A DNA stretch of 32,573 nt, taken from NCBI GenBank assembly GCA_021838445.1, contig JAKCDU010000042.1, positions 1-32,573 of the forward strand, given 5' to 3'. The notes below the pieces were generated by a model, which made no database searches, was not told the origin of the DNA, and was given only the letters and a program-made list of their open reading frames with translations. Made by a program: the position numbers and the translations under genes. This DNA is from Actinomycetes bacterium. GTDB lineage: Bacteria > Actinomycetota > Acidimicrobiia > Acidimicrobiales > Palsa-688. Positions 1,049 to 32,402 of this stretch are shown here, in pieces. How positions within the stretch are numbered: position 1 is the stretch's first letter; each line of letters begins with the position of its first letter.

Positions 1049-1885
1049 TCAGCGGGCGGGACGGGTGCGAGCCGCGACCAGGCACACGATGCGGTCCTCC
1101 ATACCCGTGTCGATCGCCGCGACCCGGTACAGGCCGGGGCCGACAGCCTGGGCCTCGGCCCGGAACGGCCCCACCCGGGCCGCCGCGAGGTAGTGCACCT
1201 CGATGCTCTCCACCACGGCCGGCCGGCCCAGGTCGGCCGAGGCCGCCGTCTTGGCCGCGGTCTCGGCCAGGAGGGCCACCAGGCCTCCCTGCAGGCTCTG
1301 GGTGCCGTTGAGCAGGTCTTCCCGGAGGCTGATCTCGGCGATCCCCGGTTCGGTCACCACGAGGCCGACGTGGTCGGCGAGAGTGGGGTGGCCCGACACC
1401 ACGTGCTTGATCTGCTGGACCTCCGATATCCGTGCCGAGACGGTGTCCTGGGGCCGGGGCGACGCCTGGAAGGTGCCGACGGCCAGGCCGATCACCCGCC
1501 CGTCGGCCACCGAGCGGACCGTGGTCTCGCCGACCGACACCGTGCGCCCCGATTTGGTCAAGCGGCACGACAGATCTATCTCGGTCCCCGGGGGGACCGA
1601 CCCGGTCAGGTGGACCGACAGGCTGGAGGTGACCGAGATGCGAGGGGCGGTGCGGGTGGACGCGGCCACGCCGATCAGCACGTCGGCGAAGGTCAGCACG
1701 GCCGCAATGCCCGGCCAGCCCGGGGCGGCCGCCAGGTAGTCGTCGATCCGGGCCCGGCCCTGACCGCCGCCGTCCTCCATGCGGTAGTGGAACCCCATCG
1801 TGGCGAGGAAGTAGGCCCGCTCGTCGGCGTGCAACTCCGGGACAGGGGCCTCTGCAGGCCCCCCATCTCGTGCTTCGGCCACCAT
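1049..1885 (-). CDS. Double-hotdog acyl-CoA thioesterase-like protein
   Basis: 278 residues from ATG at 1885. The frame stays open further upstream, but that part overlaps the divergent lipoprotein gene and reads like non-coding sequence. Two tandem hotdog-type halves can be seen. The first, to about residue 125, includes MGFHYRMEDGGGQGRARIDDYL and SSLSVHLTGSVPPGTEIDLSCRLTKSGRTVSVGETTVRS; the second includes ISLREDLLNGTQSLQGGLVALLAETAA, the helix-plus-loop typical of the PaaI/thioesterase superfamily. Proteins of this fold hydrolyse or bind acyl-CoA esters in the cytosol. The substrate cannot be read from sequence. The nearby enoyl-CoA hydratase and acyl-CoA-dehydrogenase-fold genes suggest CoA-thioester metabolism, but they are not in the same operon. 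No strong ribosome-binding site precedes the start. Confidence 0.72.
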   Translation of the reverse strand: MVAEARDGGPAEAPVPELHADERAYFLATMGFHYRMEDGGGQGRARIDDYLAAAPGWPGIAAVLTFADVLIGVAASTRTAPRISVTSSLSVHLTGSVPPGTEIDLSCRLTKSGRTVSVGETTVRSVADGRVIGLAVGTFQASPRPQDTVSARISEVQQIKHVVSGHPTLADHVGLVVTEPGIAEISLREDLLNGTQSLQGGLVALLAETAAKTAASADLGRPAVVESIEVHYLAAARVGPFRAEAQAVGPGLYRVAAIDTGMEDRIVCLVAARTRPAR

Positions 1886-2069
1886 CGGGCGGCAGGCTAA
1901 CCCAACTGCCGGCGGTCGCGCCGCATCGGGGGCGGCCAGCTGCGACCCCCGGAGCCGAGTAGCCCGCAGGCCGGTGGCGGAGCCGCCACGGTGGCCCGCT
2001 GGGATTCGGCTACGCGTCGGCCCCTGAATCTGCAAGGATCGCTGGGCCAAGAGCAAGGGGGACTGGAAG
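1886..2069. other. Divergent intergenic region, thioesterase / binding lipoprotein
   Basis: 184 bases between two divergent genes, so promoters for both should lie here. A small hairpin (GTGGCGG at 1974-1980 pairing with CCGCCAC at 1983-1989) is visible. The purine-rich AAGGGGGA near 2053-2060 is the likely ribosome-binding site of the lipoprotein gene. I could not identify convincing -35/-10 pairs. Confidence 0.35.
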
Positions 2070-3305
2070 ATGCTCGCAAGAGGCAGGCTGATGGCCGTGG
2101 TGGTCGCCGCCACGCTGGTGGTCGGAGCGTGCAGCTCCTCCAAGCCGGGCGGCTCGGCCGCCGGCCCGTCGGGGGGGTCAGGTCAGGGGGGCACCCTGAC
2201 CATAGGCGTCCTCGGAGACTTCACGGGCCCCGCCGCCTCGGGGAACAAGACCTACATCAACGGGATCGACGCCGGCCTGGTCCTGGCCAAACGGCAGGGA
2301 TGGAACATCACCGTGGTGCAGGCCGACACCCAGACGTCACCGGCGGCCGCCCTCTCCGCGGTCCAGAAGCTGGTGACCCAGAACAATGTGTCAGTGATCT
2401 TGACCCAGTCGGCCATAGCCTTCGCCGCCGCCCCCTACCTCAACCAGCACAAGATCCCGGTGATCGGGGTGGCCGAGGATGCCGGCGAGTGGCAGACCGA
2501 CCTCAATATGTTCCCCGTTGGCGGGGCCCTGCACATCACCGCTGTCACCAGCACCTTCGGTCTCCTGCTCAAGCAACTCGGCGCGACCAACGTCGGAACC
2601 CTCGGGTACTCCATCTCGCCGTCGTCGGCCGACTCGGCCAAAGGGGCGACCCTCTCCGCCGAGGCCGCCGGTCTGAAAGGTGGCTATCTCAACGCCAATT
2701 TTCCGTTCGGCAGCACCAACGTGGCACCGGTGGCCATCGCCATGAAGAACGCCGGGGTGGACGCCTTCTACGCCTCGGTGGATCCGAACACCGGTTTCTC
2801 GCTCATCAGCGCCCTCCGCCAGCAGGGCGTCGACCTGAAGGCCGCCGTACTTCCTGACGGTTATGGTGCCGATACCCTCCAGGCGGGTCCGGGGGCGCTG
2901 CAGTCGGCTCAGAACGTGTACTTCACCCTCGGTTTCGAGCCGGTCGAGATGAACAAGCCCGAGACCAGGCAGTTCCAGGCCGATCTCGTCGCCTCCGGCA
3001 CCCAGGGCGTCCCGACCTACGGCGAGTACAACGGTTACGTGTCGGTCGGCCTGCTGCTGAAAGCCCTCGCCGCCACCGGCGCCCATCCGAGCGCCGCTTC
3101 GCTCACCACGGCCCTGTCCAACATCCACAGCTGGGACGCCCTGGGCCTCTGGGGTGGGCGGTCCATCGACATCAACGACCGCACCGGCGTCCTGGCCACC
3201 GGCTTGTGCTCGTGGGTGACCAAGCTGGTGGGCTCCAACTTCGAGCTGGTCCCGGGCGCCACACCGATCTGCGGGACGGTGATCAAGGGCGCCAGCGCCG
3301 GCTGA
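2070..3305 (+). CDS. ABC-transporter substrate-binding lipoprotein, branched-chain amino acid/amide type (Peripla_BP_6)
   Basis: 411 residues starting at ATG 2070, about 10 nt after a purine-rich AAGGGGGA. A lipoprotein signal ends in the lipobox VGAC with acylated Cys21. A Gly/Ser linker leads into a Leu/Ile/Val-binding-type periplasmic domain: TLTIGVLGDFTGPAASGNKTYINGIDAGL, QADTQTSPAAALSAVQKLV, NVSVILTQSAIAFAAAPYLN, KIPVIGVAED and, late, YGEYNGYVSVGLLLKAL. The protein should sit on the outer face of the membrane and hand a small carboxylate, amide or aromatic compound to a permease. No permease or ATPase gene lies next to it, so it is an orphan: it either serves a transporter encoded elsewhere or acts as a sensor. 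The downstream neighbour, an MFS exporter, is convergent and unrelated. Confidence 0.88.
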   Translation: MLARGRLMAVVVAATLVVGACSSSKPGGSAAGPSGGSGQGGTLTIGVLGDFTGPAASGNKTYINGIDAGLVLAKRQGWNITVVQADTQTSPAAALSAVQKLVTQNNVSVILTQSAIAFAAAPYLNQHKIPVIGVAEDAGEWQTDLNMFPVGGALHITAVTSTFGLLLKQLGATNVGTLGYSISPSSADSAKGATLSAEAAGLKGGYLNANFPFGSTNVAPVAIAMKNAGVDAFYASVDPNTGFSLISALRQQGVDLKAAVLPDGYGADTLQAGPGALQSAQNVYFTLGFEPVEMNKPETRQFQADLVASGTQGVPTYGEYNGYVSVGLLLKALAATGAHPSAASLTTALSNIHSWDALGLWGGRSIDINDRTGVLATGLCSWVTKLVGSNFELVPGATPICGTVIKGASAG

Positions 3306-3312
3306 TCGGCCT

Positions 3313-3340
3313 GGGCTCAGAGGGTCGGGCTCAGAGGGTC
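3313..3340. repeat. Perfect tandem duplication of a 14-mer
   Basis: GGGCTCAGAGGGTC occurs twice in a row (3313-3326 and 3327-3340) in the short gap between two convergent genes. The second copy contains the TCA that is the stop codon (TGA, minus strand) of the MFS gene; the first copy carries a second TCA 14 nt further on. It looks like a recent slippage duplication. Confidence 0.9.
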
Positions 3341-4887
3341 GGGGCGGCCCCCGCCTCGGCGGCCACCGCCTCGGCCACGTCGGCCTCGGTCATCTCTATT
3401 TCCGACGGCTTGGGGATCGGCACCAGGCTGACGAGGAGGGCCAGCCCGGCGAGCCCGGCGGCGGCCACTTGGTAGGAGACGTGGGTGCCGGCGACGAAGG
3501 GTACGGTCGTGCGGACCCGGGCCGACACGGCCTGGCCCAGCTGGTGGGCGCGGGCCGTCGAGACCGACCCGAAGATGCTCACCAGCACGGCCAGGCCGAG
3601 AGCCCCGCCGACCTGCTGGGCCGCGTTGAGGAGGCCTGAGGCGGCCCCGGCGTCCTCGTGGGCCACGCCGCTCAGGCCCATGGTGGTGATGACCATGAAC
3701 GACAGGCCGTTGCCGATGCCGAACAGCACGAGGGGCACGATCAGGTCCGAGTAGGCGCTGTGGACCGTCACCCCCGACAGCACGTACAGGCCGGCGGCCG
3801 ACAGGGACAGGCCGGTGACCAGCTGCACCCGGGCCGGGACCCGCCGGGCCAGGACGTGGGCGCTCAACTGCGACGAGGCGAACAGGCACACCGTGATGGG
3901 GACGAACGACAGCCCGGCCTGGACCGGGCTGTAGCCGAGGACTTCCTGGAGGTACTGGCTGAGGAAGAAGAAGATGCTCGTGCCGGCGGCCACGACCAGT
4001 ACCCGGGCCACGTAGGCCACCGAACGGCTCCGGTCGGCGAACAGGTGCAGCGGGGTGATCGGTGTCACCGCCCGCCGCTCGGCCAGTACGAAGCCGACCA
4101 GGAGGGCACCACCCGCGGCCAGGGAGACGATGGTGACGGGGTCGCCCCAGGTACCGGTGGCGGCCCGTACCAGAGCGAACACCAGCGCCGACATCCCGAG
4201 GGTGGACGTCAGGGCGCCGGTCAGGTCCAGGCTTCCCCTTCTGGGTTCGGTCTCGGGTAGGACGGCCCGGGCCAGCAGGATGAGGGCGGCTCCCACGGGG
4301 AGGTTGATGAAGAAGATCCAGCGCCAGGAGACACTGCCGACGATCAGGCCGCCCACCACCAGCCCGACGGCCGTCCCCCCGATGGACACTGCGGTGAAGT
4401 AGGCGAGGGCCCTCAGGCGCTCCCGGCCCTCGGGGAAGCCGATGGTGAGCAGGGCCAGGGCCGACGGCGACGCCAGGGCGCCCCCGACCCCCTGGGCCGC
4501 CCGGGCGGCGAGGAGCAGGGCCGAGGAGTCACTGAGACCGGCGGCCAGCGAGGCGAAGGTGAAGATGGCGATACCGACGAGGAAGGTCTTGCGACGCCCC
4601 CGCAGGTCCCCGGCGCGGGCGCCGAGCAGCAGGAGGCCTCCGAAGGTCAGTCCGTAGGCGTTGAGGACCCATGACAGTTCGGCCGGTTGCATGTGCAGCG
4701 ACGAGCGGATGTGCGGGATGGCGATATTGACGACCGTCCCGTCGAGCACCACCATCAGCTGCGAGATGACGATCACCGCCAGGACGCCGTTGGCGTGTCG
4801 GGGCCGGGTCGGGTTGGTCGGAGCCGGGCCGTCCCCGGGGGTGGCACCCGCGGGCGGGTCGGCGCGAGCCGGGGTGATATCGCTCAA
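3331..4887 (-). CDS. MFS drug-efflux transporter, DHA2/EmrB-QacA type (14 TM)
   Basis: 518 residues, the usual length of 14-helix drug:H+ antiporters. The start is TTG at 4887 (minus strand reads TTG AGC GAT); no ATG or GTG lies between it and the first helix that would leave a sensible N-terminus. Visible family motifs are LDGTVVNIAIP in helix 1 (residues 48-58, motif D1), GDLRGRRKTFLVG (93-105, motif A in loop 2-3), RAAQGVGGALASPSALAL, and the helix-5 region GGTAVGLVVGGLIVGSVSWRWIFFINLPVG. Helices continue through YLQEVLGYSPVQAGLSFVP to the C-terminus. The N-terminal 33 residues are a disordered Pro/Ala tail. The family exports hydrophobic drugs or metabolites with proton exchange; the substrate is unknown. 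The tail ends in an Ala/Glu-rich stretch. Confidence 0.9.
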   Translation of the reverse strand: MSDITPARADPPAGATPGDGPAPTNPTRPRHANGVLAVIVISQLMVVLDGTVVNIAIPHIRSSLHMQPAELSWVLNAYGLTFGGLLLLGARAGDLRGRRKTFLVGIAIFTFASLAAGLSDSSALLLAARAAQGVGGALASPSALALLTIGFPEGRERLRALAYFTAVSIGGTAVGLVVGGLIVGSVSWRWIFFINLPVGAALILLARAVLPETEPRRGSLDLTGALTSTLGMSALVFALVRAATGTWGDPVTIVSLAAGGALLVGFVLAERRAVTPITPLHLFADRSRSVAYVARVLVVAAGTSIFFFLSQYLQEVLGYSPVQAGLSFVPITVCLFASSQLSAHVLARRVPARVQLVTGLSLSAAGLYVLSGVTVHSAYSDLIVPLVLFGIGNGLSFMVITTMGLSGVAHEDAGAASGLLNAAQQVGGALGLAVLVSIFGSVSTARAHQLGQAVSARVRTTVPFVAGTHVSYQVAAAGLAGLALLVSLVPIPKPSEIEMTEADVAEAVAAEAGAAPTL

Positions 4888-19087: not shown

Positions 19088-19874
19088 AGGCCCGCCGGGC
19101 CCCCCGGCGGCGACTGCGCTTACCCCGGCTCGATGCCAGCGCCGGGCAGCAGGCCCCGCACGTCGGCAGCGCCACGGCCAGAAAGGCGGCGCCGGCCGGT
19201 ACTGCGCCGGCGGTGACTGCGCCGGCGCCGGCCAGGATGAGCACCCCGAGCAGGATCTCGACCCCAGCGCCGGCGAGCGCCGAACCCAGGCGGAGCCGGG
19301 GCGAGAGGCGCCACGGGCCGGGGTCGGCGTCGAGCAGCGGTTGCCAGTAGAGAGACCCGACCACGACGACGAGCAGGTGGGAGCCATCATGGGCCAGCGG
19401 GTGGGTCAGCAGGTAGTCGTAGACCTGCCGGTCGGCGAGCATCGCGCCCATCGAGCCGTAGTAGAGCAGCCACCCGAGCAGCGGGTTGGTCAGGTAGCGC
19501 AGAACCCGGCTGTGGACGACCCTCACCAGTCGGACCTGGGCCGGGCGGCGGCACGCCTGGACGGCCAGCGTGACGGGCCGCCCCAGAAGAAGAAGGGGTG
19601 GTGCCACCATCATTAGGAGGGCGTGCTGGACCACGTGGACGGTGGGCTGCTCGTCGTGGGCGGCCAGGCCCGAGCCGACGGCCAGCCACAGGAGGCCGAT
19701 GCCACTGACGAAGCAGGCCGTGGAGGAGCGCGACCACCTGCGGCCTCTCCTGGCCAGCCGGCCGACACCGGCCAGGTAGGCCGCCGCCGCCAGCACCTGC
19801 AGGGCGTCGGCGGCTAGGGCCAGGCCGCCGGTCTGCACCCCCGCGAAGAGAGCGGCCCCGTCCGCTGCGGTCAC
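19062..19874 (-). CDS. CtaG-like integral membrane protein (cytochrome c oxidase assembly, caa3 type)
   Basis: 270 residues from GTG at 19874, overlapping the upstream VWA gene by 4 bases (GTGA). About six or seven membrane helices are visible. The family signature is HVVQHALLMMVAPPLLLLGRPVTLA (residues 80-104, with conserved histidines), then LTNPLLGWLLYYGSMGAMLADRQVYDYLLTHPLAHDGSHLLVVVVGSLYWQPLL. The C-terminus contains Ala/Gly-rich repeats (AGAGAVTAGAVPAGAA) followed by CGACC and a basic tail. CtaG proteins of the caa3 class aid copper-site or oxidase assembly in the membrane. Being the last gene of a tightly coupled cox operon suggests a role in copper supply for the Mo-Cu CO dehydrogenase, or in linking the enzyme to the respiratory chain. 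That is inference; the family call is solid. Confidence 0.84.
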   Translation of the reverse strand: MTAADGAALFAGVQTGGLALAADALQVLAAAAYLAGVGRLARRGRRWSRSSTACFVSGIGLLWLAVGSGLAAHDEQPTVHVVQHALLMMVAPPLLLLGRPVTLAVQACRRPAQVRLVRVVHSRVLRYLTNPLLGWLLYYGSMGAMLADRQVYDYLLTHPLAHDGSHLLVVVVGSLYWQPLLDADPGPWRLSPRLRLGSALAGAGVEILLGVLILAGAGAVTAGAVPAGAAFLAVALPTCGACCPALASSRGKRSRRRGARRAWTRPAPTA

Positions 19875-21040
19875 GAGGCGATCGCCTCCAGGACCTCGTC
19901 GAGGGCGGCCAGGCTGTGGCCGCTGACGAAGGCGTCGACGTAGGGCAGCGCCGCGGCCATGCCGGCGACCAGGGGGCGGTAGCCGTCGGCCGCCTTGCGC
20001 GGGTTGACCCACACGATGCGGTAGGCCAGGCGCCGTAGGCGCTGCATCTCCCGGGCCAAGACTTGGGCGTCGCCGGTGTCCCAGCCGTCGGAGAGGATGA
20101 GGATCACCGCCCCGCGGGCCAGCCCACGCCGTCCGTGCTGGTCGTTGAACGCGGCGATGGCCTCGCCGATGCGGGTCCCGCCGTGCCAGTCGGGCGCCAG
20201 GCGCCCGGCTTTCTCGAGGGCCCGGTCGGGGTTCGCCCGGGTCAGCGCCCGGGTCAGGCGGGTCAGCCGGGTGGCGAACACGAAGGCTTCGGCCCGGCTC
20301 TCCGACACCCCGTTCCACAGGAGCTGCAGGTAGGCCCGGGAGTAGCGCTCCATCGAGCCGGAGATGTCACATATGAGGACCACCCGTCGTGGTCGGTGCC
20401 GCCTCTTGCGCACGACCGGCGAAAGTGGCTCACCGCCGGTCCGCCGGGCCCGCCGGAGGCTGGCCCGCACGTCCAGGTCGGTGCCTCTGCGGTTGCGCAC
20501 CTGGCGGCGGCTGAGCCGCTGGGGGGCGACGATACGCAGGCGCCCCAGCTGGGCCAGTTCCTCGGGGCTGAGCCGGGCGAAGTCCTCGTGGCGGAGCCGC
20601 TCGTCGGCGCTCGAGGCGGCCTGCACGGTGTCCTCCTCTGAAGATCCTTCCTCGCCGTCGCCGGCTGCCCCCGCGGGCGAGGGCATAGGGGCGGACACGG
20701 GAGGGTTGTCCCCCCGCGGAGGGGGCCGGGTCTCACCCCGGCGGACGCTCGGCGGTGGGGGTGGGCTGTCACCGCGGAAGTCGGCGGGATCGACCAGACC
20801 CTCGAAGACCGAGGCGAACACGGCGTCGTAGACGGGTATCGACCCATGGTCGGCTACGAGGGTCACCCGTCCCAGCCAGTACAGCTCGGACACGGTGGCC
20901 GGGGCGGTCATGGCCATGGTGGCGGCCAGGCGGCCGGCCCGCTCGGGGGTGACGGGCACCCCGGCGGCGTGCAGCAGGGTGGCGAAATGGCCGGCCAGCG
21001 CGGCCAGGTCGGGGGGCCGGGTCCCGACCGCCCCGGTCAC
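19871..21040 (-). CDS. coxE: VWA-domain protein CoxE, CO dehydrogenase maturation
   Basis: 389 residues from GTG at 21040, overlapping the AAA ATPase stop by 4 bases. An N-terminal helical part (LAGHFATLLHAAGVPVTPERAGRLAATMAMT) is followed by an acidic/Pro-rich linker (about 90-150). Basic RRQVRNRRGTDLDVRASLRRARRTGGEPL leads to the von Willebrand A domain with a MIDAS motif DISGSM (225-230), GGTRIGEAI (287-295) and LSDGWDTGD (317-325). This is the CoxE type (PF05762). In CO oxidisers CoxE works with the AAA ATPase CoxD on building the Mo-S-Cu centre of CoxL; a role in the copper step has been proposed. Its position directly after the ATPase, with start/stop overlap, fits a MoxR-VWA chaperone pair acting in the cytosol. 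Confidence 0.88.
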   Translation of the reverse strand: MTGAVGTRPPDLAALAGHFATLLHAAGVPVTPERAGRLAATMAMTAPATVSELYWLGRVTLVADHGSIPVYDAVFASVFEGLVDPADFRGDSPPPPPSVRRGETRPPPRGDNPPVSAPMPSPAGAAGDGEEGSSEEDTVQAASSADERLRHEDFARLSPEELAQLGRLRIVAPQRLSRRQVRNRRGTDLDVRASLRRARRTGGEPLSPVVRKRRHRPRRVVLICDISGSMERYSRAYLQLLWNGVSESRAEAFVFATRLTRLTRALTRANPDRALEKAGRLAPDWHGGTRIGEAIAAFNDQHGRRGLARGAVILILSDGWDTGDAQVLAREMQRLRRLAYRIVWVNPRKAADGYRPLVAGMAAALPYVDAFVSGHSLAALDEVLEAIAS

Positions 21041-21924
21041 GGCCCGGCCAGCCAGTCCGGGCCTCGGGACATGGCCAGCTCGAGGTCCTCGCGGTATTTG
21101 AGCACCGACCCGAGGGTGGTCTCCACGGCCTGCGGGTCGAGGGCCGGCAGGCCGAGCAGGTCGAGGGCCAGCACCCAGTTGATGGCCTCGGCCACGCCCG
21201 GCGGCTTCTGCACCTCGAGGGTCCGCAGCCGGGCCACCGCGGCGGCCACCGATTCGACGAGGGGAGTGGATGCCTGCGGGACCCGACGGCGAACGATGTC
21301 GGTGGTGCGGGCCACGTCGGGGTAGTCGATCCAGTGGTAGAGGCAGCGCCGCTTCAGGGCGTCGTGGAGGTCCCTGGTCCGGTTGGAAGTGAGGATGACC
21401 ACCGGCCGGTGGGTGGCCCGCACCGTCCCGATCTCGGGGATGGTCACACTTCCCTCGGCCAGCAGCTCGAGGAGGAACGCCTCGAACTCGTCGTCGGCGC
21501 GGTCGATCTCGTCGATGAGAAGTACGGCGGGGCGGGGTCCGGGGTGCTCCACGGCTTGCAGCAGGGGGCGGGCGAGGAGGTAGTCCCGGCGGAACAGGTC
21601 CTCCTCGCGCAGGTGCTCGTGGGCCGTCTCGGAGACCTTGATGGCCAGCAACTGCCGGGGGAAGTTCCACTCGTAGAGGGCCTCGGCGGCGTCGATGCCC
21701 TCGTAGCACTGCAGCCGGATGAGCGGGGTGTCGAGGGCGGCGGCGAGGGCCTTGGCGGCCTCGGTCTTGCCCACCCCGGGCTCCCCCTCGAGCAGGAGCG
21801 GCTGGGGCAGGCGCGCCGCGCAGAACAGGGCGACGGACATGCCTTCGTCGGCCAGGTAGTCGCTGCGGTCCAGGGCCTCGCGCAGCTCGTGGGGCGAGGA
21901 GACCCACTCGGCGATGTCGCTCAA
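21037..21924 (-). CDS. coxD: MoxR-type AAA+ ATPase CoxD, CO dehydrogenase maturation
   Basis: 295 residues from TTG at 21924 in a TTGA overlap with the preceding stop; the resulting MSDIAEW start fits the family, and the longer frame upstream lies inside the XdhC gene. Walker A is GEPGVGKT (47-54), Walker B VLLIDEID (134-141), sensor 1 VVILTSN (175-181), then LKRRCLYHWIDYPD (189-202), where the arginine finger of MoxR ATPases lies, and a helical lid. YEGIDAAEALYEWNFPRQLL is characteristic of the CoxD branch. In Oligotropha CoxD is a membrane-associated ATPase needed for sulfuration of the Mo centre of CoxL. Gene order and spacing with coxE support the same role here. Confidence 0.9.
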   Translation of the reverse strand: MSDIAEWVSSPHELREALDRSDYLADEGMSVALFCAARLPQPLLLEGEPGVGKTEAAKALAAALDTPLIRLQCYEGIDAAEALYEWNFPRQLLAIKVSETAHEHLREEDLFRRDYLLARPLLQAVEHPGPRPAVLLIDEIDRADDEFEAFLLELLAEGSVTIPEIGTVRATHRPVVILTSNRTRDLHDALKRRCLYHWIDYPDVARTTDIVRRRVPQASTPLVESVAAAVARLRTLEVQKPPGVAEAINWVLALDLLGLPALDPQAVETTLGSVLKYREDLELAMSRGPDWLAGP

Positions 21925-22772
21925 GACGCTTGGTAGGCCTTGAGGCAGCCGGGACCGCAGAAGTACACGTCGTCGATGTGCAGGGCCGTCTCGGTGATGA
22001 CCACGGTCATGCCGCAGATGGGGTCCACGGCCTGGCACATGTCGGCCACGAGGGGGTGGCCCTGGCGGGCCCGGCGGGGCTGGCCGGCCACGATCTCCGC
22101 CAGTATGGACAAGGCGACCTCCTCGGCGGTGGCGGCGCCGATGTCGAGGCCGGCGGGGGAGTGCACCCGGCCCTGCATCTCCTCGCTCACCGGTAGCGCC
22201 GCGACCACCGCGGCTCCCCGCTTGCGGCTGGCCACCAGCCCCACGTAGGGGACCCCGGCCTCGAGGGCGCCGACCAGGGCCGGCTGCTCGTCGCCGCCGT
22301 GTGACGCCACCACCACCGCCGCCGCGTCGGGTGCCACCGTGCCGTCCCAGGCGACCATGGAGTAGCCGAGCGGGGTGCCGAGCGCGATCAGAGCTTGCGC
22401 CGTCGGTGAGGCTCCCACCACCTGGACCAGAGGCGACGGCAGGGCCGGCTCGAGGAATATCTCGATGGTCCCGCCCGACAGGCACGGGTTGTGCACCACG
22501 TGCTTGCCCGGCTGCTCGGGTTCGGGGGAGGGAGTGATGCGGAGGAGTACCGGCGCACCGGCGGGGAGGGCGGCGAGAGACTCCCGGATCACCGTCGCCT
22601 CGGCGCACTCACCCCCCACGAAGCCCTCGATGACCCCGTCGGCGAGAACTATCGCCTCGTCGCCGGGTTTGGCCGAGGTGGGCGGCTCGGCCCAGACCAC
22701 CCGTGCATGCACGAAAGGGGTCCGGGCCGAGCGCAGGGCCGCCGAGCGTCGGGACAGGTCCTGTCGGATCAC
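21921..22772 (-). CDS. XdhC/CoxF-type maturation protein fused to a C-terminal YHS metal-binding domain
   Basis: 283 residues from GTG at 22772, 10 bases after the coxL stop. The XdhC family parts are GVIEGFVGGECAEATVIRESL (about 46-66), NPCLSGGTIEIFLEP (95-109), the Rossmann-like LVQVVGASPTAQALIALG (115-132), VVVASHGGDEQPAL (153-166), YVGLVASRKRG (176-186) and SPAGLDIGAATAEEVALSILAEIVA (205-229). XdhC proteins bind molybdenum cofactor and support its sulfuration; two relatives (CoxF, CoxI) belong to cox clusters. After residue 245 a separate YHS domain follows: DPICGMTV (Cys253) and YFCGPGCLKAYQ (Cys272, Cys276). YHS domains occur in copper and heavy-metal transporters and in metal-dependent oxygenases. 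I have not assigned coxF or coxI, because the two are not separable by eye. The fusion fits a role in bringing metal, possibly copper, to CoxL; this is inference. Confidence 0.86.
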   Translation of the reverse strand: MIRQDLSRRSAALRSARTPFVHARVVWAEPPTSAKPGDEAIVLADGVIEGFVGGECAEATVIRESLAALPAGAPVLLRITPSPEPEQPGKHVVHNPCLSGGTIEIFLEPALPSPLVQVVGASPTAQALIALGTPLGYSMVAWDGTVAPDAAAVVVASHGGDEQPALVGALEAGVPYVGLVASRKRGAAVVAALPVSEEMQGRVHSPAGLDIGAATAEEVALSILAEIVAGQPRRARQGHPLVADMCQAVDPICGMTVVITETALHIDDVYFCGPGCLKAYQAS

Positions 22773-22782
22773 TCCGCCGCCC

Positions 22783-25206
22783 CTATTCGATGGCCAGGTC
22801 GGGACGCAGCGGGCGGCCCTGCATGGCCCGCCAGGTCGCCGCCGGGGTGAACGGCATGTCGGCGTGGCGCAGTTGGAGGGCGTCGAGCACGGCGTTGACG
22901 ACAGCCGCCGGGCTGCCGACCGTGGCCGACTCGCCGACGCCTTTGACCCCGATCGGGTGGTGCGGCGAGGGGGTCACCGTCTGTCCCAGCTCCCACGACG
23001 GGCACTCCATCGAGGTGGGCAGGAGGTAGTCCATGAAGGACCCGCCCAGGTTGTTGCCGTCGGAGTCGAAGGCGATCACCTCCATCAGGGCCATCCCCAC
23101 CCCGTCGGCCAGGCCGCCGTGCACCTGGCCTTCGACGATCATCGGGTTTATCCGGGGGCCGCAGTCGTCCACCGCGATGAAGCGGCGGACCTTCACCTGC
23201 CCGGTCTGGGGGTCGACGTCCACCACCGCGATGTAGCAACCGAAGGGGTAGGTGAGGTTGGGCGGGTTGTACACCACCGAGGCGTCGAGGTGGCCTTCTA
23301 CCCCCTCGGGCAGCTCCAGGCTTCCGTGGGACGCCATGGCGATCTCGGCCATGGTCTGTCCCTTGGACGGGTCACCTTTCACATACCAGCGACCGTGCTC
23401 CCACTCGAGGTCGTCGGGGGAGCACTCGAGGGCGGCGGCGGCCACGATGCGGGCCTTGTCCTTCACCCGCTGGGCGGCCACCGCCGCGGCCGCCCCCGAC
23501 ACCGGCGTCGAGCGCGACCCGTAGGTGCCGAGGCCGAAGGGGGTGTTGTCGGTGTCGCCGTGGATGACCTCTATGTCCTCGGGGGGGATTCCGAGCACGT
23601 GGGACACGATCTGGGCGAAGGTCGTCTCGTGGCCCTGGCCCTGGGTCTGCACCGACAGGCGCAGCTGGGCCTTGCCGGTCGGGTGGACCCGCAGGTCGCA
23701 CCCGTCGGCCATGCCGAGGCCCAGGATGTCCATGTGCTTGCGGGGCCCGGCGCCCACGCCCTCGGTGAAGAAGGAGATGCCGATACCCATCAGCGGGGCC
23801 GCCGGGTCGGCCCCTGGTTCCGCCGCCGCCGCCCGTCGCTCGGCCTGCTCCCGGCGCAACTCGTCGTAGCCGGCGATGCGCTTGGCCTCATCCAGAGCGG
23901 CCGGGTAGTTGCCCGAGTCGTATTCCCAGCCCGTCGGAGTGGTGTAGGGGAACTGTTCGGGGCGCAACAGGTTCTTCATGCGCAGTTCGGCGGGGTCCAT
24001 CTTCAGCTCGAAGGCCAGGCAGTCCACCATGCGCTCCACCAGGTAGACGGCCTCGGTGATACGGAACGAGCAGGCGTAGGCCACGCCGCCGAGCGCCTTG
24101 TTGGTGTACACCGCGGTCACCTTGCAATGCGCTGCGGGGTAGTCGTAGGACCCGGTGAAGATGTGGAAGAACCCGGCCGGGAACTTGGTCGGCTGGGCCA
24201 CCCCGTTGAAGGCGCCGTGGTCGGCCAGCACGTTCACCCTCAGGCCGAGGATCTTGCCGTCCTTGGTGGCGGCGATCTCCCCGTGCATGTGGTAGTCCCG
24301 GGCGAAGGAGGTGGACATCAGGTTCTCCGAGCGGTCCTCCATCCACTTGACCGGGGCCTTGGTCACGATGGACCCTACGATGGACAGGACGTAGCCGGGG
24401 TAGATGCCGACCTTGTTGCCGAAGCCGCCACCGATGTCGGGCGAGATGATCTGGATCTTGTGCTCGGGCAGCCCGGCGACGAGGGCGTAGACGGTGCGGT
24501 GGGCGTGGGGCGCCTGGGTGGTGGTCCAGACGGTGAGCTTGCCGGTCACCGGGTCCATGTGGGCGACCGACCCGCAGGTCTCCATCGGGGCCGGGTGCAC
24601 CCGGGGGTAGATCATGTCCTGGGCCACGACCACCTCGGCCTTGGCGAAGACCTCCTCGCAGGCCGCAGCGTCGCCGGCCTCCCAGTCGTAGATGTGGTTG
24701 TCGGTGCGACCCTCGAGGTCGTCGCGGATCACCGGAGCGTCGGGGTCGAGGGCGTGCCGGGCGTCGACGACGGCCGGGAGCGGGTCGTACTCCACGTCGA
24801 TCAGTTCCAGTGCGTCGCGCGCCGAGTACTCGTCCTCGGCGACGACGAAGGCCACCTCCTGGCCCTGGTAGCGGACCTTGTCGGTGGCCAGCACGGCGGT
24901 GACGTCACCCGACAGGGTGGGCATCCACGCCAGGTTGAGGGTCTCGAGCACCGCACCGGTGATGACCGCTTTGACCTTGGGGTGGGCCTCCGCCGCCGAG
25001 GTGTCGATGGATACGATGCGGGCGTGGGCGTAAGGGCTGCGCAGGATGGCCCCGTGCAGCATTCCCGGCAGGCGCAGGTCGTCGACGTAGTGACCCTGGC
25101 CGCGCAGGAACCGGGCGTCCTCCTTGCGCAGCATGCGGCCGAAGCCGAGAGGGTTGCCGGCCGGGGACAGGGCGGCGTCGGGCGGCGGGATTTCGGTGGC
25201 GGTCAC
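22783..25206 (-). CDS. coxL: Aerobic carbon monoxide dehydrogenase, molybdenum-copper large subunit, form I
   Basis: 807 residues, close to the 809 of the Oligotropha enzyme. GTG at 25206 follows GGAGG by seven bases and overlaps the coxS stop (GTGA). The active-site loop reads AYACSFR (376-382); the form I signature is AYxCSFR, whose Cys (here 379) binds copper, whereas form II proteins have AYRGAGR. Other cofactor contacts are [11 protein letters not shown] (257-267), [11 protein letters not shown] (520-530), [21 protein letters not shown] and GVKGVGES with the catalytic Glu759. The enzyme oxidises CO with water to CO2 and passes electrons via CoxS and CoxM towards the quinone pool. Gene order M-S-L is also that of form I. 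All key residues are intact, so a working CO dehydrogenase is expected. Confidence 0.96.
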
Positions 25207-25694
25207 GCTGACACCTCCTGGGAGTCGACGGTTTGGTGGGTGGCCGCCCAGCGGATGGCCCGCACGATGTTCTCGTAGCCGGTGCAGCGGCACAGGTTGC
25301 CCGAGATGGCTTCCCTGATGGTGTCCTCATCGGGGTCGGGGTTGCGGTCGAGCAGGGCCCGGGCGGTCATCATCATCCCGGGGGTGCAGAACCCGCACTG
25401 CAGGCCGTGCTCCTCCATGAAGCCCTGCTGCACCGGGTCGAGGTCGCCGGTGACGGGGTCGGCCAGGCCCTCGACGGTGCGCACCTCGTGGCCGTCGGCC
25501 ATGGCGGCCAGGGTGGTGCAGCTCTTGACCGGGGCGCCGTCCAGCCACACCGTGCACGCCCCGCAATTGGAGGTGTCACAACCCCAGTGGGTGCCGGTGA
25601 GGCCGGCCGACTCCCGTAGGTAGTGCACCAGGAGCAACCGGGGCTCTATCTCGGCTGTGGTCTCCTGGCCGTTGACCTTCATCGTGACGCGCAT
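25203..25694 (-). CDS. coxS: Carbon monoxide dehydrogenase small subunit, two [2Fe-2S] clusters
   Basis: 163 residues from ATG at 25694, starting immediately after the coxM stop (TAG-ATG) and overlapping coxL by 4 bases. The N-terminal plant-type ferredoxin domain has Cys39, Cys44, Cys47 and Cys59 ([22 protein letters not shown], given here only as spacing). The C-terminal helical domain has Cys100, Cys103, Cys135 and Cys137 (QCGFCTPGM and [12 protein letters not shown]). These are the two iron-sulfur clusters that carry electrons from the molybdenum centre of CoxL to the FAD of CoxM. Length and motifs are standard for the family. Confidence 0.95.
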
Positions 25695-26573
25695 CTAAGC
25701 GGCTTCCCCTCTGGCTCGGGCTATGGATCGGTTCAGTGCTCTGGCCACCAGTACCCCGACCAGGTGGCGCTTGTAGTCCACCGGGCCGCGCTGGTCGGCC
25801 GACGGGTGACAGCTGGCCGCGCAGATGGCGGCGGCCTCTTCGATGGCTTCGGCGGTGGGCGGCCGGCCCCTCAGCAGGTCCTCGGCCGGGGCGCAGGTGA
25901 AGTGCTCGGCGCCGACCGCGGTGATCCCGATCCCGACATCGGCGATCGAGCCGTCGTCGCCGAACTGCACGAAGGCTCCGGCGGCGGCGACCGACCAGTC
26001 GCCGGCCCGTCGCTCCACCTTCTCGTAGGCCGACCCGGTCCGGGTGCGGATCGGGACTCGGACCTCGACGAGGATCTCGCCGTCCCCGACGGCGGTCTCG
26101 TAGGGTCCCCGATGGAAGTTGCCGAGGTCCACGGTGCGGGCCCCCTCGACGCTGCGGATGACTACCTGCCCGCGCAGAGCGGCGAAGACGGCCGACAGGT
26201 CCTCGGACGGGTCGGCCTGGCAGAGCGACCCGCCCACTGTTCCCCGGTTGCGGACGATCGGATCGGCGATGACCCGCTCGGCCTCGGCGAAGATGCGGTA
26301 GTGCTCGGCTAGCACCGCCGACTCGAGCACGGTGGCGTGGCGGGTCATGGCCCCGATGGCGATCTGGTCGCCTTCGACGCGGATGTAGTCCAGGTCGGCC
26401 AACCCGTTGATGTCGATGAGCGTCTCGGGTCGAGCCAGGCGCAGCTTCATCATGGGCAGGAGGCTGTGTCCTCCGGCGATGAGCCGGGCCTCGGGGCCGT
26501 GACGGGTGAGCAGGGCGATGGCCTCTTCGACGCTCGCCGCTCTCTCGTACTCGAAAGGTGCCGGTGTCTGCAT
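25695..26573 (-). CDS. coxM: Carbon monoxide dehydrogenase medium subunit, FAD-binding
   Basis: 292 residues from ATG at 26573, with GGGGAC four to five bases upstream; longer upstream frame rejected because it crosses the promoter region. FAD-binding motifs of the molybdenum-hydroxylase flavoprotein are AGGHSLLPMMK (33-43) and GTVGGSL (111-117), with VIADPIVRNRGT in between. The C-terminal CO_deh_flav domain follows (GAYEKV-like segment SAYEKVERRAGDWSVAAAGAFV). CoxM receives electrons from the CoxS clusters and passes them to the membrane quinone pool. It is the first gene of the operon; its upstream region holds an inverted repeat and a candidate promoter shared with the divergent regulator. 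Confidence 0.94.
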   Translation of the reverse strand: MQTPAPFEYERAASVEEAIALLTRHGPEARLIAGGHSLLPMMKLRLARPETLIDINGLADLDYIRVEGDQIAIGAMTRHATVLESAVLAEHYRIFAEAERVIADPIVRNRGTVGGSLCQADPSEDLSAVFAALRGQVVIRSVEGARTVDLGNFHRGPYETAVGDGEILVEVRVPIRTRTGSAYEKVERRAGDWSVAAAGAFVQFGDDGSIADVGIGITAVGAEHFTCAPAEDLLRGRPPTAEAIEEAAAICAASCHPSADQRGPVDYKRHLVGVLVARALNRSIARARGEAA

Positions 26574-26729: not shown

Positions 26730-27695
26730 GTGACCCTCACCCAACTGGAGGCTTTCGTCCTGGTGGCCCGCCTGGGTTCGGTCACGGCCGCGGCCAGGGC
26801 TCTCGGGGTGAGCGAGCCGGCGGTGTCGTCGGCGCTGTCGGCCCTGCGCCAGCAGATGGGCGATCAGCTCATATCAAAAGGGACGAACGGGATGGTTCTC
26901 ACCGTGGGGGGGCAGCGTTTCATGCCCATCGCCTCGCAGATCGTGGGCCTGGCCGCCGAGGGCCATGCGGTGATCCGCCAGGCCCAGGGGGCCCCCGCCC
27001 GCTTGCGGGTGGCCGCCACCTCCCGGGTGGCCGAGTTCGTCGTGCCGCCCCTGGTGGACGCCTTCTCGGCGCGCCACGCCAACATCGAGACCTCGGTGGG
27101 GGTGGTCGAGTCGGCGGAGATGCCGGCCCTGCTCCACGACCGGCTGGCCGACGTTTGCTTCGGTCCTCAGCTGACCGGCGAGTCAGTCGTGGGGCTCGAA
27201 TCGGTGCCGATGATGCGCTACGGGCTGATCGTCGTCGCCTCGTCCTCCCACCGGCTGGCCGGTGCCGACCGGGTGCGATGGCAGGACCTGGTGCGCGAGA
27301 GCTGGTTGGTGGACCCCTCGGCGATGGATCCCGGGTCGGAGACGGGGATGCTCATGGCCCAGCTCCATGTCCCCGCCGAGCGGGTCCGGGTGTTCCCCAA
27401 CCAGGCGGCCGCCTGGTCGGCGGCGGCCAAGGGCGAGGGGGTGGCGCCGGCCATCGCCCATCTCGCCAGCCGGGACATCGAGGGCGGGGCCCTCCGCCGC
27501 CTCGACGTGGTCGGGACCCCGGTCCAGCTGCTGTGGTACGCCAACGCCCTGGCCCCGGACCGCCGGTCCCCGGCGGTGGCCGCCCTCCTGCGGTTCCTCA
27601 CCACCCCCGAGGCCATGCAGGCCATGCACCGCAGCGACGGGGCTGTTCCGGCCAGCCGGTTCCGGCCGCCGGTCTACGTCACCCTGTGGAGCTGA
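26730..27695 (+). CDS. LysR-family transcriptional regulator, divergent from the cox operon
   Basis: 321 residues from GTG at 26730; a second GTG six codons upstream is also in frame, and no clear ribosome-binding site decides. The N-terminal winged helix-turn-helix is VTLTQLEAFVLVARLGSVTAAARALGVSEPAVSSALSALRQQMGDQLISK (1-50), followed by the linker helix and a periplasmic-binding-like effector domain (LRVAATSRVAEFVVPPLVDAFSARHANIETSVGVVESAEM, then YGLIVVASSSHRLAG and VAPAIAHLASRDIEGGALRRL). LysR genes divergent from CO dehydrogenase structural genes are known; CutR of Mycobacterium controls cutBCA in that arrangement. The effector is unknown. The shared intergenic region has a perfect inverted repeat next to a coxM promoter candidate. 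The gene ends at a strong hairpin. Confidence 0.9.
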   Translation: MTLTQLEAFVLVARLGSVTAAARALGVSEPAVSSALSALRQQMGDQLISKGTNGMVLTVGGQRFMPIASQIVGLAAEGHAVIRQAQGAPARLRVAATSRVAEFVVPPLVDAFSARHANIETSVGVVESAEMPALLHDRLADVCFGPQLTGESVVGLESVPMMRYGLIVVASSSHRLAGADRVRWQDLVRESWLVDPSAMDPGSETGMLMAQLHVPAERVRVFPNQAAAWSAAAKGEGVAPAIAHLASRDIEGGALRRLDVVGTPVQLLWYANALAPDRRSPAVAALLRFLTTPEAMQAMHRSDGAVPASRFRPPVYVTLWS

Positions 27696-29491: not shown

Positions 29492-29546
29492 GACCGCCTC
29501 TCGGACGGACTCTACCCATCGATGTGACTTGCTCCACACCGCCCGC

Positions 29547-30572
29547 TCAGGGCTCGAGCGCCACCTTTATGGAGTCACCGTTGCGGGCCGCCGCCAGGCG
29601 GTAACCGTCGGGGGCGTCTTCGAGCTCGAAGGTGTGGGTGAAGATGCCGTCGGTGCGCAGCCGGCCCGAGGTGACCAGGGGCAGGAGCTCCTTCCATGTT
29701 TGGTGCACCGGCGCCGTGGTCAGCCTCAGGGTGACGCTGCGGAACAACCCCATGAGTATGGGAAGGGGGTACGGCCCGGGGTGGTGCACCCCGACCACCG
29801 AGACCGTACCCCCGGGGCGCACCGCGCTGAGGGCGGCGTCGAGGGTGGCGTCGAGAGCCACGGCGTCGATCACGGCGTCGGCTCCCCGCCCCGAGGTCAT
29901 CTCGAGGATGGACTCCACGGTGGGCCCCTCCAACGGTTCGGCCCCGAAGTCGGCGGCCAGCTGCCGTCGGCCGGCGACGGGGTCTACGGCCAGGACCCTC
30001 CCGGCCCCGAGCAGGAGCGCCGAGCGTACGGCGCACTGGCCGACGGCGCCCAGGCCCAGCACGGCAACAGTCGCGCCCGGGGCGAAGTCGGCGCGCCGGG
30101 CGGCGATCCAGCCGGTGTTCAGGTTGTCCGTGAGCAGCAGGGCCGAGCGGTCGTCGACCCCGTCGGGGATCCTGATCATCTGGAAGTCGGCCGCCGGCAC
30201 CCCCACCGATTCGGCCTGCCCTCCGGCGAGAGCCCCCGAGCCGAAGACCTTGGGGCCTTCCACGCAGGTGACGGGATCGCCGGTGGCGCATCCGTCGCAG
30301 TGACCGCATCCGGCGACCGAGGAGGTGAGCACCCGGTCCCCCGGGCGGAAGCGCGTTACGTCCCGACCGACCGCAGTCACCGTGCCCACGAACTCATGGC
30401 CGACCGACAGGGGTCCACCCACGGGGATGTCCCCGTCGTAGAAGTGCAGGTCGCTGCCGCAGATGCCGGCCAGCTCCACCTTGACCACGGCGTCACCGGG
30501 ACCGGGTGGGGCCGGGTCGGGGGCGTCGATCACCTTCGCCGAGTGCGGGCCGTCGATCACAACCTGGCGCAT
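29547..30572 (-). CDS. Zinc-dependent alcohol dehydrogenase (MDR superfamily)
   Basis: 341 residues from ATG at 30572, with GGAGGGGG about four bases upstream; the much longer open frame is rejected. The catalytic zinc ligands are Cys38 (GICGSDLHFYDG) and His59-Glu60 (GHEFVGTV); the structural zinc site has Cys89, Cys92, Cys95 and Cys103. The nucleotide-binding turn is GLGAVG (173-178), with LAVDP as the end of the second strand, where Asp favours NAD. The enzyme oxidises an alcohol or polyol in the cytosol. The ICGSDLH...GGPLSVGHE pattern is common to sorbitol, threonine and formaldehyde-type dehydrogenases, so the substrate cannot be fixed. A small membrane-peptide frame lies 172 bases upstream on the same strand. 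Confidence 0.91.
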   Translation of the reverse strand: MRQVVIDGPHSAKVIDAPDPAPPGPGDAVVKVELAGICGSDLHFYDGDIPVGGPLSVGHEFVGTVTAVGRDVTRFRPGDRVLTSSVAGCGHCDGCATGDPVTCVEGPKVFGSGALAGGQAESVGVPAADFQMIRIPDGVDDRSALLLTDNLNTGWIAARRADFAPGATVAVLGLGAVGQCAVRSALLLGAGRVLAVDPVAGRRQLAADFGAEPLEGPTVESILEMTSGRGADAVIDAVALDATLDAALSAVRPGGTVSVVGVHHPGPYPLPILMGLFRSVTLRLTTAPVHQTWKELLPLVTSGRLRTDGIFTHTFELEDAPDGYRLAAARNGDSIKVALEP

Positions 30573-30744
30573 GCCACCCCCTCCGGCGCGATGCCGCGCC
30601 GCCGTCGATCCCGCCGGTCGGCGGGCGCCTGGCGAGTCTTCCCGCCCGGGGCCGACAGGCGCAATTGCGACAGGTGGACGGTGGGTGCCTTTCGGGCGGG
30701 CGGCGTCTGCGCTGGCCGCACCACGTCGGGCTGCCCGGCGGGGG
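30573..30744. other. Intergenic region upstream of the alcohol dehydrogenase
   Basis: 172 bases with only open frames of shadow quality on either strand. The ribosome-binding site of the dehydrogenase lies at the left end. No promoter or hairpin was recognised. Together with the small frame at 30745-30852 and the gap to pyruvate kinase, this forms a 396-base stretch whose only candidate gene is that 35-residue frame. Confidence 0.35.
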
Positions 30745-30852
30745 TCAGCGGCGCTTGCCGAACCGGGGGCGCAGCGCGTACCACCAGATGGCCGCCATGG
30801 TCCCGAGCGTGCCGAGCACGGCGATGGGCTTTCTCGCCAGGTTACGGGCCAT
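30745..30852 (-). CDS. Possible 35-residue single-helix membrane protein
   Basis: ATG at 30852 to TGA at 30745. The peptide begins MARNLARKPIAVLG, has one hydrophobic segment (about residues 9-27, including GTMAAIWWYAL) and ends in a basic tail RPRFGKRR. Charged ends around one helix with paired tryptophans look like a real small membrane protein rather than chance, but the frame has only a weak GAGAG directly before the ATG and no recognised family. It is divergent from pyruvate kinase and upstream of the alcohol dehydrogenase on the same strand. Confidence 0.42.
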   Translation of the reverse strand: MARNLARKPIAVLGTLGTMAAIWWYALRPRFGKRR

Positions 30853-30968
30853 CTCTCAAACCTAGTGGACCGGGGGTGGCGGAATGTGGGGCCGGTTCCG
30901 ATGGCCCGTCCGGCGGCGGGCGCGCCGAACGGTCCGTGGGGGTCGGCACGCTGCGCAAGGATGGCGGC

Positions 30969-32402
30969 ATGTCCGATTCCAGGCGAACCAAGATCGTGGC
31001 GACGGTGGGCCCGGCCTCGCAGTCGCCGGAGGTGATCGCGGCCATGGCCGACGCCGGCATGGACGTGGCGAGGGTTCCGCTGGCCCACGGAACCGTCGAG
31101 GAGGCCGTGGAAAGGGTGCGGGCCATCCGGGCCGCGGCCCCCGGCGTGGGCATCATGCCCGACCTGCCCGGGCCCAAGATCCGCACCGCCGCCTTCCCGC
31201 CCGGGGGGGTGGCCCTTCCCGCCGGCTCGATCATCGCGCTGCGCCCGGCCCGCGACGGCGACGCCAGCACGTCGGAGGCCATCGGGGTCTGTCACCCCGA
31301 CCTGGTGGGTGGGCTCCAGGCGGGGGACCGGGTGGCGCTGGGCGACGGCGGGGTGGTGCTGACCGTTCAGCGGCGGACCAGCGTCGGCGTCGAGGCCCTG
31401 GTCCACAACGGGGGGCGTCTGCAGGGCCGCCCGGGGGTGACGGCACCTTCGGGGCGGGTGGAGCTCGACACCCCGACCGCTGAGGACCTGAGACGGCTCG
31501 AGGTGCTCGTCGGAGAGGGGGTCGACGCAGTGGCCGTGTCCTTCGTACGGTCGGCCGCCGACATGGACGCGGTGCGCCGGGCGGCGGGCGCCGATTGCCC
31601 GCTGCTGGTGGCCAAGATCGAGACCCCCGAGGCCGTCGGCGCCCTGGAGCAAATCGTCGCCAGCGCCGACGCGGTGATGGTCGCCCGGGGGGATCTCGGG
31701 GTCCGCATGGCCCTCGAGGACGTACCGCACATCCAGAAGGAGATAATCCGCGTCGGGGTCCGCTACGCCCGCCCGGTCATCACCGCCACTCAGATGCTGG
31801 AGTCGATGATCACCGCCCCGGTGCCCACCCGGGCCGAGGTGGCCGACGTGGCCAACGCCGTCCTCGACGGGACGAGCGCGGTCATGCTCTCGGGGGAGAC
31901 CGCGGTGGGGGCCGACCCGGTGGCGGTCATAGAGACCATGGCCCGCATCACCAGGCGGGCCGAACAGGATTTCGACAGCGTGGGCTGGGCCACCCATCTG
32001 GCCCCCCAGCAGGTTCCGGGAGGACCGGTGAGCGTGGCCCGGCTGACGGCCGCCACGACCGCCGCCGGGTGGCGGGCGGCCATGGAGCAGAACGCCTCGT
32101 GCATCGTCGCCTGCACCCGCTCGGGGACCACGGCGCGCTCGATCTCCCGTTTCAGGCCGCCGATGCCTCTGATCGCCTGCACCCCCTCGGAGCGCACGGC
32201 CCGGGCGCTGACGCTCAGCTGGGGGGTCCGCACCCTCACCATCGGGGAGGCGTCGAGCACCGACGAGATCGTGTGGTTCGCAGTCCAGGCCGTGGTCGGC
32301 GCCGGCTACGCCTCACCCGGTGATGTCATCGTCGTGCTGGCCGGCTCGCCCATCGAGCCCGAGCCGGCGACCGACACCATGCGGCTGGTGCGCATCCACT
32401 GA
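30969..32402 (+). CDS. pyk: Pyruvate kinase (divergent, apparently K+-independent type)
   Basis: 477 residues from ATG at 30969, preceded by AAGGAT seven bases upstream; the longer frame is rejected. Pyruvate kinase motifs are RRTKIVATVGPASQS, the catalytic VAKIETPEAV (Lys216, Glu218), AVMVARGDLGV (Asp242, metal), ITATQMLESM (271-280) and PTRAEVADVANAVLDGTSAVMLSGETA. The C-terminal alpha/beta domain ends in DTMRLVRIH. Two features are odd. The usual RLNFSHG reads RVPLAHG, so the Asn and Ser that bind K+ are Pro37 and Ala39. The usual GPE or GPK segment is DLPGPKIRT with Lys70, the residue that replaces K+ in K+-independent enzymes. Length is normal. The enzyme converts phosphoenolpyruvate and ADP to pyruvate and ATP. 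Confidence 0.88.
   Translation: MSDSRRTKIVATVGPASQSPEVIAAMADAGMDVARVPLAHGTVEEAVERVRAIRAAAPGVGIMPDLPGPKIRTAAFPPGGVALPAGSIIALRPARDGDASTSEAIGVCHPDLVGGLQAGDRVALGDGGVVLTVQRRTSVGVEALVHNGGRLQGRPGVTAPSGRVELDTPTAEDLRRLEVLVGEGVDAVAVSFVRSAADMDAVRRAAGADCPLLVAKIETPEAVGALEQIVASADAVMVARGDLGVRMALEDVPHIQKEIIRVGVRYARPVITATQMLESMITAPVPTRAEVADVANAVLDGTSAVMLSGETAVGADPVAVIETMARITRRAEQDFDSVGWATHLAPQQVPGGPVSVARLTAATTAAGWRAAMEQNASCIVACTRSGTTARSISRFRPPMPLIACTPSERTARALTLSWGVRTLTIGEASSTDEIVWFAVQAVVGAGYASPGDVIVVLAGSPIEPEPATDTMRLVRIH

Follow-up and report, generated by a model that had tools for sequence, protein, structure and literature searches.

Aerobic CO dehydrogenase carries a Mo-S-Cu centre that has been termed unprecedented in nature (PMC4240915), and the question raised by the locus described here is which protein hands the copper to this centre. 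In O. carboxidovorans, coxF and coxE mutants produce a CO dehydrogenase without Cu and with the Mo sulfurated in part, and CoxF was proposed as the Cu supplier on the basis of a phytase motif and a MCPSHGTM motif in this one species (PMC4240915). Because a mutation in either coxE or coxF removes both proteins (PMC4240915), the Cu defect cannot be attributed unambiguously to CoxF. The window analyzed here, positions 1 to 32,573 of contig JAKCDU010000042.1 of an Actinomycetes bacterium of the order Acidimicrobiales (GCA_021838445.1), contains a form I cox operon for which an initial annotation, made from the sequence alone, had described an XdhC-family protein with a YHS tail and suggested that the tail is a built-in copper carrier.

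The open-reading frames and their Pfam matches give the operon order coxM-S-L-F-D-E on the minus strand, and the genes overlap or almost touch, with starts at 22772 for coxF, approximately 21927 for coxD and approximately 21040 for coxE. The FAD subunit is encoded by coxM (25695..26573; PF00941, PF03450), whose frame opens at 26744 with an ATG at 26573 as the candidate start, and the [2Fe-2S] subunit by coxS (25203..25694; PF01799, PF00111). The large subunit gene, coxL (22783..25206), lies in a frame opening at 25293 with a GTG at 25206 as the candidate start; its product scored 1314 bits against the form I model TIGR02416 (cut-off 991) and has the active-site loop AYACSFR with Cys408, which fits the form I pattern AYxCSFR. 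After coxF (21921..22772) come coxD (21037..21927, start approximate; PF07728, AAA_5), encoding a MoxR-type AAA+ ATPase 49% identical to OM5 CoxD, and coxE (19871..21040, start approximate; PF05762, VWA_CoxE, 202.7 bits), encoding a VWA-domain protein. A divergent LysR-type regulator gene upstream of the operon (26736..27695, plus strand, start approximate; PF00126, PF03466) is, from its position, a possible controller of the cox genes. Within its own order, the window CoxF is just 37-41% identical to its closest CoxF matches from other genomes, but it reaches 60-74% identity with those from genomes of other orders and at locus L105, and these cross-order identities suggest that the operon (19871-26573) may have been acquired horizontally. 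Elsewhere in the window, a 957-residue open frame (29529-32402, plus strand) has pyruvate kinase confined to its C-terminal half, residues 484-956; its first ~480 residues have no Pfam match, which may reflect a fusion or an overextended frame.

The coxF frame begins with GTG and encodes 283 residues, with XdhC_CoxI (PF02625, residues 14-79, 55.5 bits) and XdhC_C (PF13478, residues 117-227, 73.4 bits) both over their curated cut-offs. Together with TIGR02416 and the AYACSFR loop, these matches bear out the reading of an XdhC-family protein in a form I cox operon. The XdhC protein adjoining coxD and coxE in the O. carboxidovorans cox cluster is CoxF (PMC4240915), and in a tree rooted on CoxI/XdhC paralogues the window protein and CoxF of O. 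carboxidovorans OM5 (Afipia, pHCG3) fell in one CoxF group with 95% SH-aLRT. By position, domains and tree, the window protein is the orthologue of pHCG3 CoxF. The initial annotation was therefore right about the family but had not recognized the protein, which is not an extra XdhC but the factor already tied to Cu insertion by mutants (PMC4240915). The two CoxFs share the XdhC_CoxI and XdhC Rossmann architecture, a form I operon with coxD and coxE, and a core Cys in a C-x-S-x-G motif, with 34% identity over residues 19-237; they differ in that the OM5 protein has no YHS domain and ends RHGQRQSDNQKEGTS, and in gene order, which is L-D-E-F in OM5 and L-F-D-E in the window.

The C-x-S-x-G motif of Cys97 occupies the place of the proposed Cu motif MCPSHGTM of OM5 CoxF. 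Across alphaproteobacterial CoxFs, where M107CPSHGTM takes versions such as GCPSEGSM, MCPSEGTM and GCPSRGTV, the Cys is the sole consistently conserved possible metal ligand of this motif, so the published MCPSHGTM basis for a Cu route to the Mo-S-Cu centre is not conserved in the relatives of O. carboxidovorans. At L031 and the alphaproteobacterial loci L258 and L260-L266, related CoxFs retain just the core Cys and the S/G frame of MCPSHGTM, and the CoxF tails inspected are without the OM5 phytase motif RHGQRQS.

The cysteines of the window CoxF are at positions 56, 97, 246, 253, 272 and 276. An XdhC core of residues 1-230 (22083..22772, minus strand) holds Cys56, in a GGxC motif, and Cys97, both invariant across the aligned CoxF sequences (n=59-61). 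It is followed by a low-confidence linker of residues 231-246 (22035..22082, minus strand) and by a shortened YHS-type domain of residues 247-283 (21924..22034, minus strand) with the pattern D-x2-C-x18-C-x3-C. The tail after the linker reads CQAVDPICGMTVVITETALHIDDVYFCGPGCLKAYQAS and holds Asp250, Cys253, Cys272 and Cys276, the three Cys being exactly where they had been claimed. An AlphaFold2 model built with 59 orthologues had a mean pLDDT of 93.9 and a pTM of 0.86, with the tail at ~95 and a dip at residues 231-241; the pLDDT of the linker (block mean 59, <50 at 235-237) suggests that it is probably flexible. The model of an orthologue with a full-length tail had the same layout. In structure searches with whole CoxF models, the matches listed covered the XdhC core and Rossmann domain, the predicted core matching 2we7/2we8 at Z ~16 and 3on5 at Z 14.4. 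This fold is shared with the XdhC/CoxI/PaoD family, from which CoxF differs by its C-x-S-x-G motif, absent from the inspected family sequences (OM5 CoxI, for example, has PCGSAIEL), and by the YHS domain, found in 0/83 of those sampled.

Taken alone, the window tail scored 13.4-14.9 bits against the YHS model PF04945, below the gathering threshold of 30.3, and a profile search of the whole genome gave no PF04945 match at E<=1. The tail falls below the cut-off because of a 4-residue deletion and an early end: its first two Cys are 18 residues apart, compared to 22 in 107 of 116 distinct YHS tails of relatives, although the shorter spacing of 18 recurs in 2 of the 116. The second and third Cys are always 3 apart; all three are present in 116/116 tails and the Asp in 109 (94%). 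A chance occurrence of the Cys trio was rejected on this invariance. PF04945 was matched by 52 of the 59 aligned orthologues (E<=0.01; best 1.1e-28) and a TRASH model by 32 of them. Against the PDB, a CoxF profile matched phenol hydroxylase in its YHS region, and a profile of the tail matched phenol hydroxylase at E 1e-4 and, weakly, L24e (E 0.04-0.4). By homology, then, the window tail is a shortened YHS-type domain, and we use this label because the window copy alone fails the Pfam cut-off. The YHS pattern described in the initial annotation holds for the ligand set and the orthologues, but not for the score of the window copy itself.

The association of the fusion with the form of the neighbouring enzyme was tallied over 238 XdhC-type proteins in 206 loci, 117 of them with a YHS tail. 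The nearest large subunit of these 117 was form I in 104 cases, a variant with the loop AYRCSLR in one, form II in one, and none in view in 11. The apparent form II case, L041, was rejected: its coxF-coxM-coxS genes are cut by the end of their contig, and another contig of the same genome opens with a form I CoxL. At L037, L046, L049, L050, L054, L062, L065 and L103 no CoxL was in view and a form I CoxL was found elsewhere in the genome; among other loci without a clear CoxL, L051 and L060 probably belong to incomplete genomes and L040 has just the end of CoxL on its contig. The YHS tail was absent from all 83 CoxI/XdhC-class paralogues, including 20 beside form II, and 35 of these 83 provide a within-operon control, since they lie <=6 kb from a form I coxL. 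In a census of XdhC_C-domain proteins in the window's phylum, 7/8 CoxF-class members and 0/36 others had the domain. Fisher tests gave p = 2e-7 for this census and ~1e-35 for all loci, values that overstate the independent evidence because the sequences are related. The profiles that define the CoxF and CoxI classes cover the tail in part, but they play no role in whether a gene lies beside form I or form II. The fusion goes with form I CoxL, not with form II or other XdhC paralogues, and its commonness beside form II or xanthine dehydrogenase genes, named beforehand as an outcome that would speak against a copper role, was sought and not found. Form-I-like CoxLs with altered loops also occur beside YHS-bearing CoxFs, with AYRCSFM at L033 (Caballeronia, CoxL 1836-4148) and AYRCSLR at L256 (G506).

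The fusion is no speciality of this operon. Among 396 genomes searched in the window's phylum, there were dozens of full-length matches including the tail, and 80 loci were kept from a scan of ~85,000 species genomes, biased in that its patterns favour the motif, which reached Chloroflexota, Rokubacteria, Acidobacteriota, Verrucomicrobiota, Myxococcota, Bacteroidota, Gammaproteobacteria, Deinococcota, Gemmatimonadota, Actinomycetota and Thermoplasmata, among others; plasmid records contributed Halobacteria and Thermomicrobium. The Thermomicrobium CoxF (L032:6920-7927) has an intact YHS domain. Censuses that start from form I CoxL are free of the motif bias. In these, YHS was present in 17/17 Chloroflexota CoxFs, with one further locus having no CoxF in view, and in 21 of the 22 Actinomycetota loci with a complete CoxF, further loci having a CoxF that is cut or out of view; the single plain Actinomycetota CoxF groups with mycobacteria. 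Gammaproteobacteria (in the GTDB sense) gave three YHS, one Cys tail and two plain CoxFs, and a further gammaproteobacterial YHS CoxF was the one at L256 beside the variant loop. In Alphaproteobacteria, none of seven scorable CoxFs had YHS, all being plain with tails free of Cys. In Actinomycetota, in Chloroflexota and in a number of further phyla, CoxF thus normally bears YHS, and the model organism is an exception.

Deep branches of the CoxF tree carry YHS in many phyla, and the domain was likely present in CoxF originally, although those deep branches are poorly supported. Tail-less CoxFs are mainly an alphaproteobacterial group (98%) and a Streptosporangiaceae group (97-98%), with scattered mycobacteria, two of them without YHS and without tail Cys, and one gammaproteobacterial row. 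In some other CoxFs without YHS the tail is short and rich in Cys or His: SCCGG (seen twice, with a second CC motif) or SCCAG in Comamonadaceae, CCCSH in Thiomonas, CHGHG, CDAHGH, HHRCH and CAAHGH in mycobacteria, CAEHCH in L105, the actinomycete nearest to the window protein on the tree, and CCGHGSG in another actinomycete. Such replacement tails occur at three or more distinct positions on the tree, and tails with >=2 Cys are commoner in non-YHS CoxF-class proteins (6/34) than in the CoxI class (1/83; p = 0.002). This pattern of loss and replacement favours a need for soft-metal ligands at the C-terminal end of CoxF. A crude motif scan for a substitute small Cu carrier in the operons of YHS-less lineages found none that was convincing.

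Since the tail was seen with no form of the enzyme but the one that contains copper, it is a good candidate for the missing copper donor. The YHS domain of the M. phlei adenylyl cyclase gives a response to Cu and to no other tested metal, and an Asp and three Cys in the pattern D-x2-C..C-x3-C were proposed as its ligands (PMC4626032). That domain resembles the window tail in its C-terminal position on a short linker and in its D-x2-C ... C-x3-C pattern, and differs in being carried by a cyclase, in its sensor role and in the distance between its first two Cys, 22 as against 18 (PMC4626032). Sulfolobus CopM and CopT use the same domain superfamily for Cu trafficking or sensing, unlike CoxF as a stand-alone chaperone or transcription factor with no tie to a molybdoenzyme (PMC5328820). 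XdhC proteins, which have a conserved core Cys in common, help in sulfuration and bind the sulfurated Moco, keeping it protected (PMC2997495). In the mechanism we propose, Asp250, Cys253, Cys272 and Cys276 of the tail would bind a single Cu ion, and the XdhC core would meanwhile bind apo-CoxL, shield the sulfurated Mo site, or do both. The tethered domain would then hand Cu(I) to the Mo-SH/Cys408 pair in CoxL and so complete the Mo-S-Cu-S-Cys cluster; CoxD and CoxE would work on the same substrate as CoxF.

That the CoxF YHS-type domain is a tethered Cu carrier passing Cu(I) to sulfurated apo-CoxL is the reading we prefer, with a probability of roughly 60%. The computed support consists of the architecture, the form I specificity, the invariance of the ligands, the domain's loss or replacement across the tree, and a separate tail fold predicted with confidence; Cu binding by the tail, the oxidation state of the ion and its direct transfer to CoxL are what we infer. 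The strongest objection is that O. carboxidovorans manages without the domain, so YHS is not strictly required for Cu insertion, and the YHS-less lineages have to rely on the core site, on free thiol-bound Cu or on some other donor. The absence of YHS from Streptosporangiaceae and from two mycobacteria, as well as the shortening of the window copy, also count against a donor role. The copper idea of the initial annotation is supported in part: it withstands the check proposed with it, the fusion being restricted to form I, whose known partner-specific need is Cu. The wider proposal is that form I CO dehydrogenase widely receives its Cu(I), and probably did so from the start, from the tethered YHS domain of CoxF or from the Cys/His-rich tail that replaces it, and that the O. 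carboxidovorans lineage lost its tail; in our estimate it stands at about even odds. If it is true, this loss would help explain why the copper source stayed unidentified.

The rival that survives best, though we consider it unlikely, is a copper-gated switch in which YHS senses Cu and permits CoxF action or CoxL release while the active-site Cu comes from elsewhere. It explains no less well than donation why the fusion is tied to form I and why its loss is tolerated, and the sole YHS domain with a studied function regulates another enzyme in response to Cu (PMC4626032), but short Cys/His tails with no evident fold suit a metal carrier better than an allosteric switch, and the enzyme of coxF mutants is without Cu (PMC4240915). 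Somewhat less probable is a structural zinc or docking module that binds Zn or no metal and recognizes form I CoxL, CoxE or CoxD. The form I specificity could mirror such a partner rather than a metal, and the relatives of the domain include L24e and the MYM/FCS zinc-finger folds; among YHS/TRASH relatives, L24e can bind Cd, and the YHS of toluene 4-hydroxylase is metal-free in the crystal (PMC4626032). A docking role, however, predicts neither the unrelated Cys/His tails in the YHS position nor the restriction to the factor of a Cu enzyme. A further alternative concerns the window copy alone, which, whatever the role elsewhere, could be a decaying, functionless remnant, as its deletion, early end and sub-cut-off score and the loss of YHS in its nearest relative, L105, would suggest; we think this doubtful, given that all four ligand residues are retained, that the tail fold is predicted at high confidence and that the short spacing recurs in two other tails. 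Least credible by a clear distance is a sulfur relay in which the tail Cys, which could bear sulfane sulfur, carry persulfide sulfur for Mo sulfuration, the classical XdhC job in which these proteins assist with a common core Cys (PMC2997495), because xanthine dehydrogenases need the same sulfuration yet the tail is absent from the sampled XdhCs outside the CoxF class, and because sulfuration in O. carboxidovorans depends on CoxD and partly proceeds without CoxF (PMC4240915).

The tethered-carrier reading builds on parts that were already known, namely the XdhC family, the cox operon and the YHS domain, and domain databases probably list the XdhC plus YHS architecture. The fusion as the usual CoxF, its form I restriction and its absence in the model organism did not turn up in the open-access literature searched: searches there gave no match for YHS with XdhC or carbon monoxide dehydrogenase, with mention elsewhere possible, and for YHS with molybdenum gave selenoprotein reviews only. 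A domain that accompanies the Cu enzyme in so many phyla is a concrete candidate, with three named Cys, natural deletion lineages and natural replacements, and this makes the copper question open to mutational test. It also bears on the expression of active CO dehydrogenase in other hosts.

Two loci depart from the usual arrangement. A Chloroflexota CoxF (L037:9968-11161) carries two tandem YHS domains and is unlinked to coxL, the form I CoxL being on another contig of the genome. In Nanopelagicales, a coxF-coxD-coxE set (L062:3703-12946) lies away from the form I coxL in an apparent molybdenum-cofactor cluster, where MoaE, MoaA, MoaD and MoeA-like frames and a CoxG-like protein were recognized by eye, without profiles.
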